Shown: positions 16,278 through 44,937 of the stretch, piece after piece
Layout of the letters: the number at the start of each line of letters is the position of its first letter
Position numbering within the stretch: position 1 is the stretch's first letter
Assembly: GCF_036323475.1 (NCBI RefSeq)
Contig: NZ_AP028934.1
Span: 62,001-126,000, forward strand
Direction: 5' to 3'
Length of the DNA: 64,000 bases
Source: Solobacterium moorei
Lineage (GTDB): Bacteria > Bacillota_I > Bacilli_A > Erysipelotrichales > Erysipelotrichaceae
Notes under the pieces: generated by a model
The model's database searches: none
Told to the model about the DNA's origin: nothing
What the model saw: only the letters and a program-made list of their open reading frames with translations
Program-made: the position numbers and the translations under genes

Positions 16278-16305
16278 TTGGTCAGAGTATATTGAAAACT
16301 ATACT
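16278..16305 (+). promoter_or_regulatory. Promoter of the HTH/RCC1-like gene
   Basis: TTGGTC (16278-16283), 16-bp spacer and TATACT (16300-16305), 38 bp before the start codon. Confidence 0.6.
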
Positions 16306-16343
16306 TGTAACCATTAAAATAGAAAGGCAGGAGGTCAATACGA

Positions 16344-18419
16344 ATGCTAAATAAATTTCCAGAAAAATTAACACTTCTTCGAAAGCATTACGGTCTTTCA
16401 CAGGGTGATGTCGCAACAAAAATCAATGTGAAATTTACCGATTATATGAACTGGGAAAATGGCAACAGTATCCCATCAATATCAAATATTCGTAAGTTAT
16501 CAGTATTGTTTGGTGTTCCGGTTGAATCATTTATTGATAATCGAAAGGTAATTGAATTACCTGAGGTAAAGGTAGTGCCACAAGTACAGCCACAGCCTCA
16601 ACAACCAACAACAGAACAAAAGCCAGATGAAACTGTTAAGGCTGATACAGTCCATACGCAGAGAGTGAATTCTGTTAAGAACGACTTGGGTAGTACACGT
16701 GCAATGGATGCAGGTAAAATTAAGACAGCCGCAAAGGTTGCAGAACCAAAGGAACCTAAGAAAGAGGTCAGCCAAAAGAAGCGCAAGAAGATTTCTTATG
16801 CGATTATGGCAGGATGCTTAGTTGCGGTAGTGGTAGTTATTGCAATTATTCTTCGTTTTACAACAGGTGGTAAGTCAGGCTTTACGGTAGAAACTTCTGA
16901 ATTAAACCGCATTGCGGAAGGTGATACATATACATTATTTATCAACAAGAATAACTCTTTAGAAGTCTATGGTGATTTCCAATATAAGAATGAATTTCAG
17001 GATGTTGTACAGGTAAGTGCTTATGGAAGTCATGCGGTTGGCCTCAAGAAGGATGGTACAGTCGTAACAACTGATAAGAATGAGGAAGTTGCGAAGTGGA
17101 AGAATATTAAGGCTATCGCTGCTGGTAAAGACCACACTGTTGGTTTAACAAATGATGGTAAGGTTGTTTGTGCAGGTAGCGAGCTTGCATGTCAGGTAAG
17201 TGATTGGTCAGATGTAGATAGTATTTACGCTGGTGATGATGCCACATTTGCGATTATAAATGGACAGGTGAAAGTATCTGGTAACTCTGCAAACTTCAGT
17301 TCGATTAGCGATGCGAAGAAGTTAGCTGTTGGAGAATCACAAGTACTTGTATTAAAGAAAGATGGCAGTGTATCTGCTGTATCCCTAAAGGGGAGCAGTA
17401 CAAGTGATGTGTCTAGCTGGACTAAGATTTCATCAATCGCAGTTGGTAAAAACTATGTGGTTGGTGTGCATGAAGATGGCACAGTTAGTGTTGTTTCGGA
17501 TGATAAAGATTTAAAGGAAGCTGTTGGAGCTTGGACAGATGTGAAATACATCGCAGCGTATGATGATACACTCGTTGCCTTCAACCGTTCTGGTAAGATG
17601 TATGGTTATGGTGATAACTCCAGTAGCCAATATGAAAATTCATTCAAGACAGACGCAAAGCAACTATCACAAGTGAAGAATATTACATTTACAGTCACAA
17701 CAGCGAATGTAAATATCGCTTGGGATCCGGTTGAAAATGCGGATTACTATGAATTAACAGTTAATACGAATCCAATTACAGAACATAAGAATATTATTTC
17801 CAATAGTGATAGTATCGCATCCTCATCCTTAAAGGATGGAGAGACATATGTTGTAACAATCACAGCACATTCTAAGAAGGAAGATAAATATAAGACAAGT
17901 GAGAAGACTTCTATTAACTTTGCCTACAATGCAAAGACAGTACAGCTCAACTCACCAACAGATATTACTGCGACCGGCTTGCAGAATGCATGGCACTTTG
18001 CATGGTCACCAGTAGAGAATGCGGATAAGTATAACATCTCAATCGATGGAACAGTTGCGGCATCAAATGTAGAAGGAACATCTATTACAATTGATGGTAT
18101 CTCATTTGCGGAAGGTTCCGAACATGAGATTAGTATTACAGCTCTATCATCTAATCCTGCATACACAGAAAGTGTACCAACGAAGGCAAAGATGAAGTAT
18201 ACTATCAGCAAAGGTAAAATCAAGATCAATTTTGAAAAACCGGATGGTAGTAGTGCTGGTTCTAAGACATATGAATTAAATGTTGGTTCATACTATGCTC
18301 AAAACATCATCAAACCTAGTGATATTCCAGGTGGATTCAAACTAGCAGATGAGCAGACTACAGCAGAAGTTATGAATGGTCAGACAACAGAAGTAACGGT
18401 CAGATTACAGGCAAATTAA
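16344..18419 (+). CDS. XRE-type HTH protein with TM, RCC1-like and FN3-like regions
   Basis: 691 residues with an unusual order of parts. Residues 1-65 are an XRE/Cro-type helix-turn-helix (LRKHYGLSQGDVATKINVKF). 66-145 is a Pro/Gln- then Lys-rich linker. 151-171 is one membrane helix. About 185-440 contains degenerate repeats of the alpha-tubulin suppressor/RCC1 type (VGLKKDGTVV, VGLTNDGKVV, VLVLKKDGSV, VGVHEDGTVS, VAFNRSGKMYGYGDN). About 445-640 has two fibronectin-III-like domains. The HTH should be cytoplasmic and the propeller and FN3 region outside. It may link an outside signal to transcription, or the HTH may only bind a partner; neither is shown. The GYF-domain gene follows after 15 bp. 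Confidence 0.8.
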   Translation: MLNKFPEKLTLLRKHYGLSQGDVATKINVKFTDYMNWENGNSIPSISNIRKLSVLFGVPVESFIDNRKVIELPEVKVVPQVQPQPQQPTTEQKPDETVKADTVHTQRVNSVKNDLGSTRAMDAGKIKTAAKVAEPKEPKKEVSQKKRKKISYAIMAGCLVAVVVVIAIILRFTTGGKSGFTVETSELNRIAEGDTYTLFINKNNSLEVYGDFQYKNEFQDVVQVSAYGSHAVGLKKDGTVVTTDKNEEVAKWKNIKAIAAGKDHTVGLTNDGKVVCAGSELACQVSDWSDVDSIYAGDDATFAIINGQVKVSGNSANFSSISDAKKLAVGESQVLVLKKDGSVSAVSLKGSSTSDVSSWTKISSIAVGKNYVVGVHEDGTVSVVSDDKDLKEAVGAWTDVKYIAAYDDTLVAFNRSGKMYGYGDNSSSQYENSFKTDAKQLSQVKNITFTVTTANVNIAWDPVENADYYELTVNTNPITEHKNIISNSDSIASSSLKDGETYVVTITAHSKKEDKYKTSEKTSINFAYNAKTVQLNSPTDITATGLQNAWHFAWSPVENADKYNISIDGTVAASNVEGTSITIDGISFAEGSEHEISITALSSNPAYTESVPTKAKMKYTISKGKIKINFEKPDGSSAGSKTYELNVGSYYAQNIIKPSDIPGGFKLADEQTTAEVMNGQTTEVTVRLQAN

Positions 18420-18434
18420 GGCAAGGAGAAATAC

Positions 18435-18641
18435 ATGGACAGACTTTGGTATTACACAAAACGAGGTAGCACAGAAAAATTTGGCCCATTTACAGATGCT
18501 GAATTAGTGCAGTTCATCAAACAAGAAATTCTTTGCAAGGATGACTATATCTGGATGCCTGATTTGAAGAATTGGTTGGAAATATCAAATTCAATCTATG
18601 CAATCTATTTACCAGCTTCAGATACAACAGTAGAAATATAA
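18435..18641 (+). CDS. GYF_2 domain protein
   Basis: 68 residues, almost entirely one GYF_2 domain: WYYTKRGSTEKFGPFTDAEL, then the W-x(4)-LKNW segment (IWMPDLKNWLEI). GYF_2 domains are thought to bind peptides or partner proteins. No membrane segment. It lies 15 bp after the HTH/RCC1-like gene with AAGGAG upstream, so a joint function is plausible. The linker of the partner is proline-rich, and proline-rich peptides are ligands of GYF domains in eukaryotes; that link is speculative. Confidence 0.75.
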   Translation: MDRLWYYTKRGSTEKFGPFTDAELVQFIKQEILCKDDYIWMPDLKNWLEISNSIYAIYLPASDTTVEI

Positions 18642-21521: not shown

Positions 21522-21637
21522 CTACAAGTACAGTTAACGAGAAATGGACAACAGATGTATCAGAGTTCCACATCACTGCAGGCAAGCTGTATCTATCACC
21601 TATTCTCGACATGCATAATAGAGAAATTATATCTTGG

Positions 21638-21690
21638 AATATATCTAATAATCCAAACTATGAGCAGATTGCCAATATGCTTGATATCGC
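21638..21690 (+). repeat. 53-bp target duplication of IS1634, left copy
   Basis: Positions 21638-21690 and 23662-23714 are identical over 53 bp and flank the IS1634-type element; both encode NISNNPNYEQIANMLDIA of the IS3 transposase. Long variable duplications are a known property of IS1634-family elements. Confidence 0.92.
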
Positions 21691-21838
21691 GGGAGTTTTA
21701 CAGTTGTAATTTAACAAGATAATGAATAAACCCTTTATTGATGGTGGATATCCATCTTTTTTTGTTGTCAAAATTTATGTATTTTTATGTAGTGTGGTGG
21801 TGTGCTTTGTGTTATAATATTGATAGAGGTGATCTTGT

Positions 21839-23563
21839 ATGTTTCTACATATACTGAAAGACAGACAATACGAAAGACTCTACATCCGCCATTCCGTTCG
21901 TAAAGGGAATGGTGTCCGTTCCGAGAACGTCAAAAGCCTTGGACGCATAGACTCGCTCATGAAGGAAATGAATCTTTCTAGGAAACAGGTATTGGAGTGG
22001 GCACAAAAGCAGGTAGACCAAATGAACGACTCTCCTTCTGCTCCTCCTGTACTATTATCATTGTTTCCTGACAAGAAGATAGTTATGGATGAACAGCGTT
22101 CCTTCCATGCAGGATATCTATTCTTACAGTCCATCTATTACGGTCTAAAGATGAAGAACGTGTTCCGTACCATATCATCACATGGCAGATTTGATTTCGA
22201 CATTGATGCGATATGTTCAGACCTTGTCTATGCACGCATACTGGATCCCGGAAGCAAACTTTCCTCATATAAGACGGCATCTTCCTTTCTAGAGCAGCCA
22301 AAGTATGAATTGCATGATGTGTATCGTGCACTAGGAACGCTATCTAAGGAGATGGACCATATATTGGCAGAAGTATACAAGAACAGCAATCATATCCTAA
22401 AGAGAAATAACAGTGTCCTATATTATGACTGTACGAACTACTACTTCGAGATCGAAGAAGAGGATGGCTTCAGACAATATGGCAAAAGTAAGGAGCACCG
22501 TCCTAGCCCTATCGTACAGATGGGACTGTTCATGGATGGCGATGGCATTCCTCTGACGTTCGACCTCTTTGAAGGTGCAAGCAACGAACAACCATCCATG
22601 AGACCTCTAGAGCAAAAGATCATACGGGATTTTGGTTTCCAGAGATTCGTTATATGTACAGATGGAGGTCTAGGATCAGAAAACAACCGACTGTTCAACG
22701 ACATCGAAGGACGTGCATTCATTTGTACGCAATCGCTCAAGAAGCTAAACCGCAAGAAACGCGAGGAAGCGATGTCGAACCAAAGATGGAAACGTCTGAA
22801 GGATGGAGCGACAGTTGATATCGAAGAGATACAGAGAGAACCATACAAGCATATCGATGACATCTATTACAAAGAAGAGCCATATGGCACCAAGAAGGTA
22901 GCTGGTCAATTGATGATCGTCACCTATTCACCAAGATATGCGACATATCAAAAAGAGATACGGGATTCACAGATTGCACGTGCAGAGTCCATGGTAGACA
23001 AAGGCTCTATCCAAAAGCAAAGAAGAAACCCAAACGATCCTGCAAGATTCGTAAGGGTCACAGCTACCACATCAGATGGAGAAATCGCATCCGAGGAGCA
23101 CTATGCGATAGACCAGGACAAGATCGATAGTGAAGCGATGTATGATGGCTTCTATGCCATCTGTACCGACCTGGTAAATGACAAGATAGAAGACATCCTA
23201 AAGGTCAGCGAAGGAAGATGGCAAATAGAGGAAGCATTCCGCATCATGAAGACAGACTTTGAAGCAAGACCTGTATATGTCAGAAAGAAGGACAGCATCC
23301 GTGCACACTTCCTGATATGTTATCTGGCCCTACTGATCTTCCGCATCCTAGAAAAGAAGTTAGGTCCAAGCTATACATCATCAGAACTGATTACTACATT
23401 GAGAGAATACAAGCTATTGAAGGTAAACGGACAAGGATACATACCGGAATATAAGCGAACAAAGATAACGGATCATCTACATAAAGAATTTGGATTCTGT
23501 ACGGATACAGAGATCGTTCCAACAGGAACCATGAGAAAGATCATATCTGAAACGAAAAAATAG
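21839..23563 (+). CDS. IS1634-family transposase, copy 1
   Basis: 574 residues, IS4-like DDE transposase of the IS1634 group. Recognisable parts: an N-terminal region with GRIDSLMKEMNLSRKQ, the catalytic VLYYDCTNYYFEIEEEDG block (first Asp), FVICTDGGLGSENN (second Asp) and EGRWQIEEAFRIMKTDF (YREK-like Glu region). GAGGTGATC precedes ATG 21839. Intact and identical in sequence to the protein at 43055-44779. A hairpin near 23590-23640 (AAATGCCAGAAACC with GGTTTATGGCATTTTTT) ends it. Confidence 0.95.
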   Translation: MFLHILKDRQYERLYIRHSVRKGNGVRSENVKSLGRIDSLMKEMNLSRKQVLEWAQKQVDQMNDSPSAPPVLLSLFPDKKIVMDEQRSFHAGYLFLQSIYYGLKMKNVFRTISSHGRFDFDIDAICSDLVYARILDPGSKLSSYKTASSFLEQPKYELHDVYRALGTLSKEMDHILAEVYKNSNHILKRNNSVLYYDCTNYYFEIEEEDGFRQYGKSKEHRPSPIVQMGLFMDGDGIPLTFDLFEGASNEQPSMRPLEQKIIRDFGFQRFVICTDGGLGSENNRLFNDIEGRAFICTQSLKKLNRKKREEAMSNQRWKRLKDGATVDIEEIQREPYKHIDDIYYKEEPYGTKKVAGQLMIVTYSPRYATYQKEIRDSQIARAESMVDKGSIQKQRRNPNDPARFVRVTATTSDGEIASEEHYAIDQDKIDSEAMYDGFYAICTDLVNDKIEDILKVSEGRWQIEEAFRIMKTDFEARPVYVRKKDSIRAHFLICYLALLIFRILEKKLGPSYTSSELITTLREYKLLKVNGQGYIPEYKRTKITDHLHKEFGFCTDTEIVPTGTMRKIISETKK

Positions 23564-23595
23564 AATCCCACACTACACAGATCAACAAAACGAAA

Positions 23596-23639
23596 ATGCC
23601 AGAAACCCTTTCTACATCGTGGTTTATGGCATTTTTTAC
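23596..23639 (+). terminator. Terminator at the right end of IS1634 copy 1
   Basis: AAAATGCCAGAAACC (about 23592) pairs with GGTTTATGGCATTTTTT (ends about 23639): an intrinsic terminator just inside the right end. The same hairpin occurs in copy 2 at about 44808-44855. Confidence 0.7.
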
Positions 23640-23661
23640 ATTTATAACTGTCAAAGATGGG

Positions 23662-24051
23662 AATATATCTAATAATCCAAACTATGAGCAGATTGCCAAT
23701 ATGCTTGATATCGCATTTCATAGATATCCAAATATAGAAGGACTGATATTCCATTCTGATCAAGGATGGCAATATCAAATGAATCAATACCATAAGGCTC
23801 TACATGAACACGGGGTCATCCAATCGATGTCTCGCAAAGGAAATTGCCTAGATAATTGTGTAATGGAGAACTTCTTTGGAAAGATGAAGAATGAGATGTT
23901 CTACGGACATGAATATGAGTTCCATACATTGGAAGAATTGAAATGTGCCATGGAAGAATACATACACTATTACAACGAAGAAAGAATACAGACAAAATTA
24001 AAAGGCCTAACCCCTTGTCAGGCAAGGAATCAAGCCTTATCATGTCGGTAA
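23662..24051 (+). pseudogene. IS3-family transposase orfB, 3' part
   Basis: Begins with the right copy of the 53-bp duplication and continues the DDE domain: IFHSDQGWQYQ (second Asp), MSRKGNCLDNCVMENFFGKMKNE (Glu) and the C-terminal YIHYYNEERIQTKLKGLTPCQ. It is separated from its 5' part by the IS1634 element, so it is not a functional gene. Confidence 0.92.
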
Positions 24052-36064: not shown

Positions 36065-39000
36065 CTACTTTATATATTTTTTGCGTATATATCCAATAAG
36101 TAACAGCAAAGAACCTGATATTAACACAAGCCACCCATATAAAGATAAATTCATTCCATCTCCTGTTTTTGGTAATTCTTTATTTGGTTTTTCAGGCGGT
36201 ACATTTGGTGTTCTAACATTAGTTACTACATAACCGTCTTGAGCTGTTCCTGTAACAACACTTGTATAACCATTTCCTACAGCTTCTTCCTTGACTGTGT
36301 ATTCAATCTTTTTGCCTGCCTTGTATTCATCAAGGTCTGTGAAAGTTCCTGTCCAGTTGTTTGCCTTTGTTAAAGTTAATATCTTTCCACTTACTTCTTT
36401 TCCATCGGCTAGTAACTTGATTTTTACACTGTTTGGTCTTTTTCCGTCTTGGTTATTTCCATCTTCCCAAGCCTTTGTTACCTGTATACTTGTCTTTTCG
36501 GGTGTGTAAGAGTTCTTTACATCATATCCGTTGATTTCAGTTGAGTATCCTTCTACTGCTTCTTCTGAAATGGTATAGGTTATTTCTTGTCCGTTTTCGT
36601 ACTTATCAAGTCCTTCAAACTTCCATTTCCAATCATCTGACTTCTTAACAACCTTTGAATCTATCTTTGTTCCGTTCTTTAACAGATTGATTGTGATTTC
36701 TTCAGGTCTCTTTCCGTCTTGATTGTTTTTATCATTCCAAGTCTTTTTACCTTCTACTTTTATCTTTTCAGGTTCTCTTGTATTTGTTACCTTATAGCCT
36801 TCTTTCATACTTCCTGTAACAACACTTACATAACCTTTTCCGACAGAGTCTTCTTTGATTGTATACTCAATCTTTTTTCCGTCCTTATACTCATCAAGGT
36901 CTGTAAACGATCCTGTCCAGTTATTTTCCTTTGTTAAAGTTAATATCTTTCCGCTTACTTCTTTTCCATCGGCTAGTAACTTGATTTTTACACTGTTTGG
37001 TCTTTTTCTGTCTTGGTTATTTCCATCTTTCCAAGCCTTTGTTATCTGTATACTTGTCTTTTCGGGTGTGTAAGAGTTCTTTACATCATATCCGTTGATT
37101 TCAGTTGAGTATCCTTCTACTGCTTCTTCTGAAATGGTATAGGTTATTTCTTGTCCGTTTTCGTACTTATCAAGTCCTTCAAACTTCCATTTCCAATCAT
37201 CTGACTTCTTAACAACCTTTGAATCTATCTTTGTTCCGTTCTTTAACAGATTGATTGTGATTTCTTCAGGTCTCTTTCCGTCTTGATTGTTTTTATCATT
37301 CCAAGTCTTTTTACCTTCTACTTTTATCTTTTCAGGTTCTCTTGTATTTGTTACCTTATAGCCTTCTTTCATACTTCCGGTAATTACACTTACATAACCT
37401 TTTCCGACAGAGTCTTCTTTGATTGTATACTCAATCTTTTTTCCGTCCTTATACTCATCAAGGTCTGTAAACGATCCTGTCCAGTTGTTTGCCTTTGTTA
37501 AAGTTAATGTCTTTCCACTTACTTCTTTTCCATCGGCTAGTAACTTGATTTTTACACTGTTTGGTCTTTTCCCGTCTTGGTTATTTCCATCTTTCCAAGC
37601 CTTTGTTACCTGTATACTTGTCTTTTCGGGTATTCTAGTGTTAGTAACTATAAATCCATCTTTAGCTGTTCCTGTGATTTTCCCAGTATACCCATCTACT
37701 TTAACTTCCTTTATAGAGTAAGTTATATCTTTTTCACCCGCTTTAGTAGGTAAATCAGTAAAAGTTGTTTTCCAATTGTTTTCTTCACTTAATTGTCTAT
37801 TCTCGATTTCATATTCTTTATTTTCGATATTGGCAATTAATTTAACCGTAACTGATTCCGGGTGCTTTTGATTAACGTTATTATCATCTATCCATTTCTT
37901 TTCTACCGACACACTTGTCGTTCCTTCTGTACCTATAGTAACAGTACCATTGCTACCAATACCTCCACCTCGGGTATTTGATTTGTTGCCACTAATTAAT
38001 ACTTTTTCGAGATTTGAAGTTAATTCATTACCTTTTTCATCTGTGTGTAAAGCTATATATTCATTATTCTTACTTAGAATACCTTTATGCTTACTTTCAG
38101 CTAAAGGAGAATTGTCCTTATTTTTCCAATTGTATGCTACTCCTCCTAACATCCTTTTGGAAATATCATATTCTGGATCACCCCCATGAAGCCCTAGATA
38201 CTTATTACATAAAATATAAATTTCATTAACATTTGATTCAGTCTTATTTCCATATATAGCAGCACCATTTGTCACATAAATTTTAGTTTTTGATATTGGA
38301 CAAGAAGCATATCCCGCTCCCTCATATTTGGATTCATTGTCAGTAATTACTACATTAGTTAAATAAAGCTCACCGTTAGCGCCTTGAACATTATAATTAT
38401 TATTCGCACCATTTACATAAATTCCACCACCGCCGAACATTTTTTCGGTAACTCCACTGGCATCCATTTGGTTATTGGTAATTCTTCCTCCAGCAATATA
38501 AGCCTTGGAAGCACCCCCACTATAATACTTTGCTTGAACAAAAATTCCACCACCGGCTGAACCTGCTGTATTACCATCAATTGTTCCACCACTCATTTTT
38601 AAAATATTAGAAGCACCCCACTGATTAGAGCCGAGGCTTATTCCACCACCAATTTCGCCAGCATAATTATTTAATACCTTTGCGTCAGCGGACATATTTA
38701 TAGTAGATCCCTCATTTGCGAGTATTCCACCACCAGCTGAATACTTTTGTTTACCATAATCGTAATCTATAACCAAATTCGATTTATTATTTTGAACAGT
38801 TCCACCGGAAAAATTCATTGTGGACCTATATAAATAAATTCCTCCACCATATGTTGCTTGATTGTTTTCAACGCTTCCACCAGTCATATTTATGGTTGCA
38901 CTTGAAGCATTAACCGCGCCACCTCGTGTTGCAGTGTTCTGAATGTCCTTTATTTTGTTATTTCTTAATATAGCATTGTTACCAATATTCAGCTCTGATT

Positions 39001-39928
39001 TATCCTCAAGGCTTACAAGGGAATTTTCAATACCAATATTTTCGTCAGAATTTCCATCAATTGTTATATCAGTTAAGGTTGCATTTTTACCAGCTCCCAC
39101 CTTAAACAAATATTTGTTGAAGTCTTTTCCTCTTAGTATTTTTGCATTTGTTCCAGCTAGAGATATATCCCCCGCAATAGGTGTTGTTCCAACTACGATA
39201 ATTCTCTTTATTTTCTGATTGTTAGTAGCTATTTCCTTTGCCCGAGCAAAAGATTTGACAGCTCTGCCCAATTTCCCGTCTAAGCTATCATCGCCTGAAA
39301 CACCATCTAAATATACATTGTTCCTTTCAGGATCAGCTTCGCCAATTTTAATTTCTTTTACAGTAATCAATTTTGCATCTTCGATTGAACCTGTATATGT
39401 TGCCTTTGGTGCAAGTCTTGGAATTTTCAGAATCATTTTTCCATCGGCTTTTTTAAGATATAAATCATAATGAAGTAGATATGGCTCCACCGGATTTCCG
39501 TCATCTTTATTATAATATTCTACTTCTACCTTGTTGTATGGAATCTTTATATCTTCAAAGGATATATTTCCATCCCAGTTGTAGCTCTCTGCCGTATATG
39601 TCATATTTTTTACAACTGTATTTGCTTCTCCCTCTATATGAAGCTCATGCTCAACAAGAAAATCTTTTAATGCCCATTCATCTCGGTCAAAAACCTTTTG
39701 TTCAGGGTCATTCATCCAATAATTTGTGTATGTTGCAAATATGCTATCAAAATCGGAAAAATCAGGACGAAACAATCTGAGATTAAGACTGTATTCATTA
39801 TCCTCAGAATTGTTTTCACCTTGATCATCTGCAAATGCTGTATATCCTGAAAGCAGCTGCCCTAAAAATAGCAGTGACACCAACATGATAGGTAAAAGTA
39901 ATTTAATTTTTCTCTTTCTTTTAACCAT
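36065..39928 (-). CDS. LPxTG surface protein with beta-helix and six Cna_B domains
   Basis: 1287 residues from the ATG at 39928 (an upstream in-frame ATG at 39955 lacks a ribosome site). Signal peptide at residues about 1-32 (KRKIKLLLPIMLVSLLFLGQ). Residues about 200-650 contain right-handed parallel beta-helix repeats (GGGIYLYRSTMNFSGGTVQNN, GGGISLGSN, GGGIFVQAKY). Six Cna_B-type domains follow, each ending in VTNTR or VKNSY-like strands. The C-terminus is ELPKTGDG, a hydrophobic helix and RKKYIK: a sortase anchor. It should be displayed on the cell wall as an adhesin, possibly stabilised by isopeptide bonds. Its original promoter is split by IS elements. Confidence 0.92.
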   Translation of the reverse strand: MVKRKRKIKLLLPIMLVSLLFLGQLLSGYTAFADDQGENNSEDNEYSLNLRLFRPDFSDFDSIFATYTNYWMNDPEQKVFDRDEWALKDFLVEHELHIEGEANTVVKNMTYTAESYNWDGNISFEDIKIPYNKVEVEYYNKDDGNPVEPYLLHYDLYLKKADGKMILKIPRLAPKATYTGSIEDAKLITVKEIKIGEADPERNNVYLDGVSGDDSLDGKLGRAVKSFARAKEIATNNQKIKRIIVVGTTPIAGDISLAGTNAKILRGKDFNKYLFKVGAGKNATLTDITIDGNSDENIGIENSLVSLEDKSELNIGNNAILRNNKIKDIQNTATRGGAVNASSATINMTGGSVENNQATYGGGIYLYRSTMNFSGGTVQNNKSNLVIDYDYGKQKYSAGGGILANEGSTINMSADAKVLNNYAGEIGGGISLGSNQWGASNILKMSGGTIDGNTAGSAGGGIFVQAKYYSGGASKAYIAGGRITNNQMDASGVTEKMFGGGGIYVNGANNNYNVQGANGELYLTNVVITDNESKYEGAGYASCPISKTKIYVTNGAAIYGNKTESNVNEIYILCNKYLGLHGGDPEYDISKRMLGGVAYNWKNKDNSPLAESKHKGILSKNNEYIALHTDEKGNELTSNLEKVLISGNKSNTRGGGIGSNGTVTIGTEGTTSVSVEKKWIDDNNVNQKHPESVTVKLIANIENKEYEIENRQLSEENNWKTTFTDLPTKAGEKDITYSIKEVKVDGYTGKITGTAKDGFIVTNTRIPEKTSIQVTKAWKDGNNQDGKRPNSVKIKLLADGKEVSGKTLTLTKANNWTGSFTDLDEYKDGKKIEYTIKEDSVGKGYVSVITGSMKEGYKVTNTREPEKIKVEGKKTWNDKNNQDGKRPEEITINLLKNGTKIDSKVVKKSDDWKWKFEGLDKYENGQEITYTISEEAVEGYSTEINGYDVKNSYTPEKTSIQITKAWKDGNNQDRKRPNSVKIKLLADGKEVSGKILTLTKENNWTGSFTDLDEYKDGKKIEYTIKEDSVGKGYVSVVTGSMKEGYKVTNTREPEKIKVEGKKTWNDKNNQDGKRPEEITINLLKNGTKIDSKVVKKSDDWKWKFEGLDKYENGQEITYTISEEAVEGYSTEINGYDVKNSYTPEKTSIQVTKAWEDGNNQDGKRPNSVKIKLLADGKEVSGKILTLTKANNWTGTFTDLDEYKAGKKIEYTVKEEAVGNGYTSVVTGTAQDGYVVTNVRTPNVPPEKPNKELPKTGDGMNLSLYGWLVLISGSLLLLIGYIRKKYIK
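36210..37630 (-). repeat. 564-bp tandem repeat coding for Cna_B pairs
   Basis: Domains 2-6 of the surface protein follow the pattern A-B-A-B-A. A begins KTSIQ(V/I)TKAW and B begins KIKVEGKKTWND, with an exact period of 564 bp (188 residues). The copies are almost identical at DNA level, so recombination can add or remove units. Confidence 0.9.
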
Positions 39929-39981
39929 AATTGCCTCTTTTCCATTACATATCAACTCATTTAATGCAACTATACGAATAT

Positions 39982-42850: not shown

Positions 42851-43054
42851 CAACAGTATAAACCTAATCTAGCAAAATGGGAGATATAATTTCTCTTGTT
42901 TTAATAATGCACAAAACGAAAAAGAAGAAATCACTAAAGATTAGAAATTTCTTCTTGACTTAAGTTATCAAGTTTTTTTGTTGTCAAAATTTATGTATTT
43001 TTATGTAGTGTGGTGGTGTGCTTTGTGTTATAATATTGATAGAGGTGATCTTGT

Positions 43055-44779
43055 ATGTTTCTACATATACTGAAAGACAGACAATACGAAAGACTCTACA
43101 TCCGCCATTCCGTTCGTAAAGGGAATGGTGTCCGTTCCGAGAACGTCAAAAGCCTTGGACGCATAGACTCGCTCATGAAGGAAATGAATCTTTCTAGGAA
43201 ACAGGTATTGGAGTGGGCACAAAAGCAGGTAGACCAAATGAACGACTCTCCTTCTGCTCCTCCTGTACTATTATCATTGTTTCCTGACAAGAAGATAGTT
43301 ATGGATGAACAGCGTTCCTTCCATGCAGGATATCTATTCTTACAGTCCATCTATTACGGTCTAAAGATGAAGAACGTGTTCCGTACCATATCATCACATG
43401 GCAGATTTGATTTCGACATTGATGCGATATGTTCAGACCTTGTCTATGCACGCATACTGGATCCCGGAAGCAAACTTTCCTCATATAAGACGGCATCTTC
43501 CTTTCTAGAGCAGCCAAAGTATGAATTGCATGATGTGTATCGTGCACTAGGAACGCTATCTAAGGAGATGGACCATATATTGGCAGAAGTATACAAGAAC
43601 AGCAATCATATCCTAAAGAGAAATAACAGTGTCCTATATTATGACTGTACGAACTACTACTTCGAGATCGAAGAAGAGGATGGCTTCAGACAATATGGCA
43701 AAAGTAAGGAGCACCGTCCTAGCCCTATCGTACAGATGGGACTGTTCATGGATGGCGATGGCATTCCTCTGACGTTCGACCTCTTTGAAGGTGCAAGCAA
43801 CGAACAACCATCCATGAGACCTCTAGAGCAAAAGATCATACGGGATTTTGGTTTCCAGAGATTCGTTATATGTACAGATGGAGGTCTAGGATCAGAAAAC
43901 AACCGACTGTTCAACGACATCGAAGGACGTGCATTCATTTGTACGCAATCGCTCAAGAAGCTAAACCGCAAGAAACGCGAGGAAGCGATGTCGAACCAAA
44001 GATGGAAACGTCTGAAGGATGGAGCGACAGTTGATATCGAAGAGATACAGAGAGAACCATACAAGCATATCGATGACATCTATTACAAAGAAGAGCCATA
44101 TGGCACCAAGAAGGTAGCTGGTCAATTGATGATCGTCACCTATTCACCAAGATATGCGACATATCAAAAAGAGATACGGGATTCACAGATTGCACGTGCA
44201 GAGTCCATGGTAGACAAAGGCTCTATCCAAAAGCAAAGAAGAAACCCAAACGATCCTGCAAGATTCGTAAGGGTCACAGCTACCACATCAGATGGAGAAA
44301 TCGCATCCGAGGAGCACTATGCGATAGACCAGGACAAGATCGATAGTGAAGCGATGTATGATGGCTTCTATGCCATCTGTACCGACCTGGTAAATGACAA
44401 GATAGAAGACATCCTAAAGGTCAGCGAAGGAAGATGGCAAATAGAGGAAGCATTCCGCATCATGAAGACAGACTTTGAAGCAAGACCTGTATATGTCAGA
44501 AAGAAGGACAGCATCCGTGCACACTTCCTGATATGTTATCTGGCCCTACTGATCTTCCGCATCCTAGAAAAGAAGTTAGGTCCAAGCTATACATCATCAG
44601 AACTGATTACTACATTGAGAGAATACAAGCTATTGAAGGTAAACGGACAAGGATACATACCGGAATATAAGCGAACAAAGATAACGGATCATCTACATAA
44701 AGAATTTGGATTCTGTACGGATACAGAGATCGTTCCAACAGGAACCATGAGAAAGATCATATCTGAAACGAAAAAATAG
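43055..44779 (+). CDS. IS1634-family transposase, copy 2
   Basis: 574 residues, identical in translation to the gene at 21839-23563: DDE transposase with YYDCTNYYFEIEEEDG, VICTDGGLGSENN and GRWQIEEAFRIMKTDF. The coding region and its ribosome site are untouched by the IS110 insertion, which lies upstream of the promoter region (TATAAT at about 43030 is retained). Confidence 0.95.
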   Translation: MFLHILKDRQYERLYIRHSVRKGNGVRSENVKSLGRIDSLMKEMNLSRKQVLEWAQKQVDQMNDSPSAPPVLLSLFPDKKIVMDEQRSFHAGYLFLQSIYYGLKMKNVFRTISSHGRFDFDIDAICSDLVYARILDPGSKLSSYKTASSFLEQPKYELHDVYRALGTLSKEMDHILAEVYKNSNHILKRNNSVLYYDCTNYYFEIEEEDGFRQYGKSKEHRPSPIVQMGLFMDGDGIPLTFDLFEGASNEQPSMRPLEQKIIRDFGFQRFVICTDGGLGSENNRLFNDIEGRAFICTQSLKKLNRKKREEAMSNQRWKRLKDGATVDIEEIQREPYKHIDDIYYKEEPYGTKKVAGQLMIVTYSPRYATYQKEIRDSQIARAESMVDKGSIQKQRRNPNDPARFVRVTATTSDGEIASEEHYAIDQDKIDSEAMYDGFYAICTDLVNDKIEDILKVSEGRWQIEEAFRIMKTDFEARPVYVRKKDSIRAHFLICYLALLIFRILEKKLGPSYTSSELITTLREYKLLKVNGQGYIPEYKRTKITDHLHKEFGFCTDTEIVPTGTMRKIISETKK

Positions 44780-44937
44780 AATCCCACACTACACAGATCA
44801 ACAAAACGAAAATGCCAGAAACCCTTTCTACATCGTGGTTTATGGCATTTTTTACATTTATAACTGTCAAAGATGGGAATATATTATATGAAATAAATCA
44901 CTTTATTACAAGCCCCATATGTCATTAATACAATACC

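Follow-up and report, generated by a model that had tools for sequence, protein, structure and literature searches.

What can a bacterium do with a protein that joins a DNA-binding-type domain to a large predicted outside part through one membrane helix, and that is followed in the genome by a tiny GYF protein? This question is raised by a locus of Solobacterium moorei, which we analysed within a window of 64,000 nucleotides (the whole stretch of DNA considered here). Literature searches found this set of HTH, RCC1 and GYF proteins described nowhere. A sequence-only reading had offered two answers, a one-component membrane regulator or an assembly scaffold; our results strengthened the scaffold half and weakened the regulator half, because the HTH combines an acidic DNA face with the loss of the canonical recognition-helix contacts. 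The open reading frames lie where that reading had placed them, and Pfam and AlphaFold2 recovered the HTH, the membrane helix, an RCC1-like propeller and FN3 in one chain with a GYF_2 neighbour. From the N-terminus, the 691-aa protein runs from an XRE-type HTH through a disordered linker and a transmembrane (TM) helix to an RCC1/BLIP-II-like propeller, which is followed by two FN3 domains and, at the C-terminus, a beta domain. The features of the locus are as follows.

16292..16334, + strand: predicted upstream element, found by eye, with promoter TTGAAA (16292-16297), a 17-bp spacer and TAAAAT (16315-16320), and ribosome-binding site AGGAGG (16329-16334)
16344..18419, + strand: large gene, predicted bitopic protein of 691 aa (ORF list, Pfam, alignment, AlphaFold2)
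16344..16541, + strand: XRE-fold HTH domain, aa 1-66 (Pfam HTH_3, column counts, recognition-helix comparison)
16542..16580, + strand: site at which most homologues carry the '(S)(V/I)xIPF' linker motif, unrecognisable in the window and Pro-rich instead
16686..16721, + strand: linker region 'LGSTRAMDAGKI' with a degenerate form of the Thr motif, a candidate Ser/Thr-kinase/FHA site
16797..16853, + strand: single TM helix, aa 152-170, with KKRKK before it (hydropathy)
16899..17648, + strand: seven-bladed RCC1-type beta-propeller, aa 186-435 (AlphaFold2 pLDDT mostly 95-98)
17169..17192, + strand: cysteine pair C276/C283 in one blade, a candidate extracellular disulfide (alignment)
17667..18179, + strand: two FN3 domains, aa 442-526 and about 535-612 (Pfam, AlphaFold2, alignment)
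18180..18416, + strand: variable C-terminal beta domain, aa 613-691 (homologue comparison, AlphaFold2)
18435..18641, + strand: small gene, 68-aa GYF_2 protein, predicted cytoplasmic, starting 15 nt past the large-gene stop (Pfam)

The HTH and GYF genes share one frame in the window, with a gap of one TAA and five codons, and all three frame relations occur at other loci. Both window proteins were modelled by AlphaFold2 as a single read-through chain in which the intervening TAA was read as Gln. Mean pLDDT exceeded 80 for the HTH, the propeller, both FN3 domains, the C-terminal beta domain and the GYF domain, was about 65 for the TM helix, and fell below 50 in the disordered linker (aa 77-160). 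Among the upstream sequences of 58 loci, inspected by eye, a similar promoter and ribosome-binding site arrangement was present directly 5' of many homologues.

The pair is a real single-copy module. Of 60 genus genomes, nearly all gave a match to the large protein and 55 to the GYF protein; the pair as a whole occurs in about 55. Forty genomes from another family of the order yielded no full-length relative of either protein. In 40/40 fully read genus loci the GYF gene comes directly after the HTH gene, often with overlapping stop and start, and overall it is adjacent in nearly every readable locus. Conservation of the gene pair, on which the sequence-only reading had staked its proposal in advance, is far beyond chance, since it extends throughout the genus and into part of the family. 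In the family sample, 43 of 146 genomes and 14 of 60 Erysipelotrichaceae genera gave a match to the large protein; one genome (G462) matched over the RCC1 part only and was dropped from later counts, leaving 42 genomes and 13 genera. Named carriers, all Erysipelotrichaceae, are Solobacterium MAGs, Bulleidia extructa, Lactimicrobium massiliense, Anaerorhabdus furcosa and Holdemania spp., in a scan that cannot exclude distant relatives because its short peptide patterns came from this family. The carriers are mainly gut and rumen species. Several small-genome genera have retained both genes, and their linker is shorter.

Many species have cysS-mrnC-rlmB immediately downstream of the pair; in the window these genes are separated from it by about 7 kb that include insertion sequences. 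One insertion sequence is present in two identical copies of 1912 bp without a mismatch (21757-23668 and 42973-44884), which encode a 574-aa DDE_Tnp_1 transposase. The copy at 21757-23668 lies within an IS3-type transposase, which it disrupts. On its two sides is a 55-bp direct repeat (21636-21690 and 23660-23714), a long target duplication of the kind reported for IS1634-type elements; no direct repeat was found around the copy at 42973-44884. The window also encodes, at 36068-39955 on the - strand, a 1296-aa protein with at least six Cna_B repeats, probably a surface protein.

No part of the large protein is better conserved than the HTH (68% mean column identity vs 34% for the whole protein). 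In Pfam it matched HTH_3 at aa 12-61 above the gathering score, as well as HTH_19 and, weakly, HTH_31, and its closest solved relatives by profile comparison were DdrO, ImmR and SinR. Across 72 homologues K8, L9, R13, E38, N39 and G40 are invariant, N3, P6, Y34, M35 and W37 are nearly so, and position 33 is acidic in 69/72. The recognition helix has the pattern S-R-Q-[AS]-x-S-K in 18 control XRE domains, but P/S-V-variable-[E/D]-Y-M-variable in 69 family members. The DNA-facing residues carry a mean net charge of -1.4 in the family vs +0.4 in the controls (Mann-Whitney p=4e-8), the controls being few, non-orthologous XRE domains from the loci read whose DNA binding is only presumed; this p-value, like those below, is nominal and uncorrected for how many motifs and family pairs were compared, several analyses having been run in sequence on the same alignments. 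Whole-domain charge did not separate the 69 family domains from the 18 controls in the same direction. Columns 32 and 36, which we take to be base contacts from alignment to the 434 repressor, vary between species, even close ones. That DNA-contact residues might be missing in all homologues had been named at the outset as a finding to look for; in the recognition helix they largely are, but the phosphate-contact Gln20 is kept in 67/72 homologues and the ENG turn is conserved. HTH matches read elsewhere in the class, outside the family, were ordinary XRE and membrane proteins, none with a propeller. A defence-system assignment was rejected, the PADLOC matches being HTH-region matches to unrelated XRE proteins only.

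These data bear directly on the first alternative, a membrane-anchored one-component transcription regulator in which a ligand of the propeller would alter both the dimerisation of the HTH and its binding to DNA at the membrane, and the GYF protein would tune the response. The layout recalls ToxR, CadC and BcrR (the last with an XRE HTH), in which a single chain likewise combines an inside HTH with a sensor in the membrane or outside, and transmembrane regulators are widespread (PMC10269533). The HTH_3 match, the DNA-binding character of the nearest profile relatives and the conserved Gln20 and ENG turn all speak for it. However, the R, Q and S/K residues of the controls have given way to V, a variable, an acidic, an M and another variable residue on a DNA face that is acidic overall, the candidate base-contact columns drift between close species, and no palindrome common to the regions upstream of the large gene was seen in the 58 loci, a visual comparison without statistics. 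The ToxR, CadC and BcrR regulators further differ from the window protein in its recognition helix without canonical contacts, its single TM helix with a propeller, and its GYF partner gene. DNA binding by the HTH is thus disfavoured by the residue comparison, and we read the domain as constrained for something other than sequence-specific DNA reading, although this is not proof. We therefore consider a transcription regulator unlikely, and rank it below an envelope-spanning scaffold or receptor, for which the GYF protein and the linker offer further indications.

In the small protein, Pfam GYF_2 (PF14237) matched aa 5-52 with 38.2 bits against a gathering score of 25.8, the only GYF_2 match in the window's genome. 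The GYF signature residues W5, Y7, G17, P18, W40 and W47 are present and are invariant in a 23-row alignment. The best solved relative by profile was the GYF domain of AgmX/GltJ (PDB 7z3c, E 0.0027), a membrane protein of the gliding machinery; it and bacterial GYF_2 proteins share the small fold and the link of a small cytoplasmic adaptor to an envelope machine. The window protein differs from AgmX/GltJ in being a stand-alone 68-aa GYF domain whose presumed partner has no PPG, and in belonging to a family whose aromatic signature is lost in several genera. In those degenerate proteins a C-terminal (D)(S/T)IYxFYL stretch persists, and part of the GYF role may therefore bypass the aromatic pocket.

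The linker had been described as proline-rich, which holds for the window's own subclade ('PQVQPQPQQP') but not for the 72 homologues at large, in which PP is depleted and PPG is absent. A GYF grip on PPG or polyproline in the linker finds no support in these counts (PPG in 0/72 linkers). Most homologues carry instead the motif '(S)(V/I)xIPF' directly after the HTH. IPF occurs in 48 of the 72 dereplicated homologues, all 48 at loci with an intact GYF signature, and is missing from all eight loci whose GYF is degenerate (five) or absent (three); no locus among the 72 combined IPF with anything other than an intact GYF. Sixteen of the 72, the window included, have a GYF protein and no strict IPF; at L186, for example, the GYF signature is kept and IPF is absent. 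One lineage (L151, L152 and L154) has the large gene with neither GYF nor IPF and keeps an 'EKTQ(V/I)' motif. The joint absence of the GYF aromatic pocket and the 'xIPF' motif supports a connection between GYF and linker, but the association is only suggestive, because phylogenetically related loci enter the count more than once, and because in short-linker genera every linker motif is gone together. AlphaFold2 read-through chains of the window and of L102 (TAA or TGA taken as a residue) had a disordered linker, and in neither species was there a sign of GYF docking on it, in models with confident domains and low pTM (0.51 and 0.44).

Nearer the membrane than IPF, the linkers carry Thr motifs with the family form LGxTRVMDTxxF, as well as EKTQVV and similar. 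The pattern T[RKQ][VIM][VILM] was observed 54 times in the 72 linkers vs 3.9 in shuffled ones, and its Ser form twice vs 2.6. Preference for Thr and a hydrophobic residue at +3 recall FHA-bound kinase sites. In the window's genome there is one PASTA kinase with an adjoining PP2C phosphatase gene, and one FHA protein, which has a 'TTVL' motif of its own. The FHA protein (L203, at about 2,570,000 of the genome) is membrane-anchored, and its gene follows one for a PrsW-type intramembrane protease. An FHA protein was found in 6/6 sampled genus members. Most carriers outside the genus are without one, several of these keeping the Thr motif, so an FHA step cannot be general; at genus level the FHA protein and the large protein showed no significant association (p=0.20). 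The kinase, present in 144/146 family genomes, is nearly universal and its distribution therefore uninformative. In a phosphoproteome of another Firmicute with PrkC, no such motif was found (PMC9674922). The Thr/Ser contrast and the HTH contrast are the strongest statistics of this analysis, and the IPF/GYF association, like the MreB/RodZ association below, is best treated as a lead.

A protein-binding role for the HTH has a precedent in RodZ, a bitopic XRE-fold protein whose HTH binds proteins and not DNA, and which binds FtsZ and occurs also in cocci without MreB (PMC6946637). With its XRE-fold domain inside, linker, single TM helix and beta domain outside (the topology here being predicted), the large protein is RodZ-like in layout, but it is not RodZ. 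It matched HTH_3 and HTH_19, whereas HTH_25 and DUF4115 were unmatched at E up to 1; its outside part consists of an RCC1_2 propeller and fn3, and it has a GYF partner. Neither MreB (at E 1e-30) nor RodZ was found in the window's genome or in 6/6 sampled genus members, which excludes MreB as a partner of the HTH in the genus. Both are missing from 9 of the 13 carrier genera, compared with 12/47 non-carrier genera without MreB and 9/47 without RodZ (Fisher p=0.007 and 0.001, respectively, phylogeny being ignored).

This distribution, together with the layout, the FtsZ binding of RodZ and its occurrence in MreB-less cocci, would suit a protein that stands in for RodZ where the MreB rod system has been lost, its HTH binding a protein of cell division or morphogenesis (FtsZ or FtsA, for instance) and its outside part a cell-wall synthase. 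Against this, four carrier genera (Holdemania-type g201, g24, g198 and g191) have both RodZ and MreB beside the large protein, so that the pair is no mere replacement for them; several genera without RodZ and MreB are also without the large protein, and the latter is unmatched by HTH_25. We regard such a substitution as improbable, and return to the scaffold or receptor reading with the outside part.

A TM helix was predicted by hydropathy in 72/72 homologues (minimum mean 2.2); AlphaFold2 places it at aa 159-173 in the window protein. The KKRKK before it, by the positive-inside rule, predicts an inside N-terminus and an outside propeller. Pfam matched RCC1_2 in three stretches of the latter (65 bits, above the gathering score), and the model aligned to UVR8, RCC1 and BLIP-II at Z 20-24, which places it among the seven-bladed RCC1-type propellers. 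BLIP-II gave the top Foldseek matches, and in VIA-align CRINKLY4 (CR4) ranked first (Z 25.1), with UVR8 at 24 and BLIP-II at 22.8 (about 25% identity). By structure the propeller is thus closest to CRINKLY4 ectodomains, UVR8 and RCC1, and among bacterial proteins to BLIP-II. The nearest solved bacterial propeller by sequence is also BLIP-II (E about 3e-5), a secreted seven-bladed protein of Streptomyces exfoliatus; the propeller here is membrane-tethered. After the 'AG' turn the blades of BLIP-II have mostly aromatic residues (NY, AW, VY, IF, EW), which we take to be its beta-lactamase-binding hot spots, whereas the window propeller has SH, KD, DD, ES, KN and DD; because these are non-aromatic, beta-lactamase binding is not expected. 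The ectodomain of plant CRINKLY4/ACR4 likewise sets an RCC1-like propeller outside, one TM helix and a signalling part inside, but that part is a kinase instead of an HTH and the protein is of plant origin, so that only the layout is analogous. The C276/C283 pair is invariant in 41 aligned genus members, and its motif occurs in 67/72 homologues; such a pair is unusual in an extracellular domain of an anaerobe, and it may form a structural disulfide or serve in redox chemistry.

FN3 is present as the sequence-only reading had claimed, but as two domains plus a C-terminal beta domain and not as one. The first was matched by Pfam fn3 at aa 442-523 above the gathering score, and the second is recognised from AlphaFold2 strands and a repeated W-V-A-Y pattern. 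In other homologues the C-terminal part is a third FN3-like domain or a Pro/Thr-rich tail, and LPxTG is absent in 72/72. A surface adhesin or a receptor for host or neighbouring cells, with cytoplasmic domains of little weight, would account for the propeller, the FN3 domains and the variable Pro/Thr-rich tails, which are common in surface proteins, and for the gut and rumen carriers, but it is the least likely alternative, as the cytoplasmic HTH is the part most conserved and the obligately adjacent cytoplasmic GYF gene is left unexplained.

The best explanation, which we hold tentatively and at somewhat less than an even chance, is that the pair forms an envelope-spanning protein-protein scaffold or receptor with GYF as its adaptor. 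Outside, the propeller and FN3 domains would bind a protein or polymer that is extracellular or part of the cell wall, and one helix would span the membrane. Inside, the XRE-fold domain, stripped of its DNA-reading residues, would form a docking hub with the disordered linker and the GYF protein, the latter sitting on the conserved 'xIPF' motif beside the HTH. The membrane-near Thr motifs may be sites of the PASTA kinase, read by the FHA protein where one exists. A more specific version, which we think doubtful, would be an undescribed RodZ-like hub of Erysipelotrichaceae without MreB and RodZ, with a protein-binding XRE fold, a GYF protein clamping IPF and a Thr switch operated by the PASTA kinase.

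Among membrane proteins, RodZ is the one well-known case in which an XRE fold serves to dock other proteins. If the explanation is true, the pair would be a second case, built independently and equipped with its own GYF partner, in gut bacteria without MreB and RodZ. It would also suggest what a bacterial GYF_2 protein that stands alone may bind in nature, and offer a testable lead on how the cell wall and the cytoplasm are linked in such cells.
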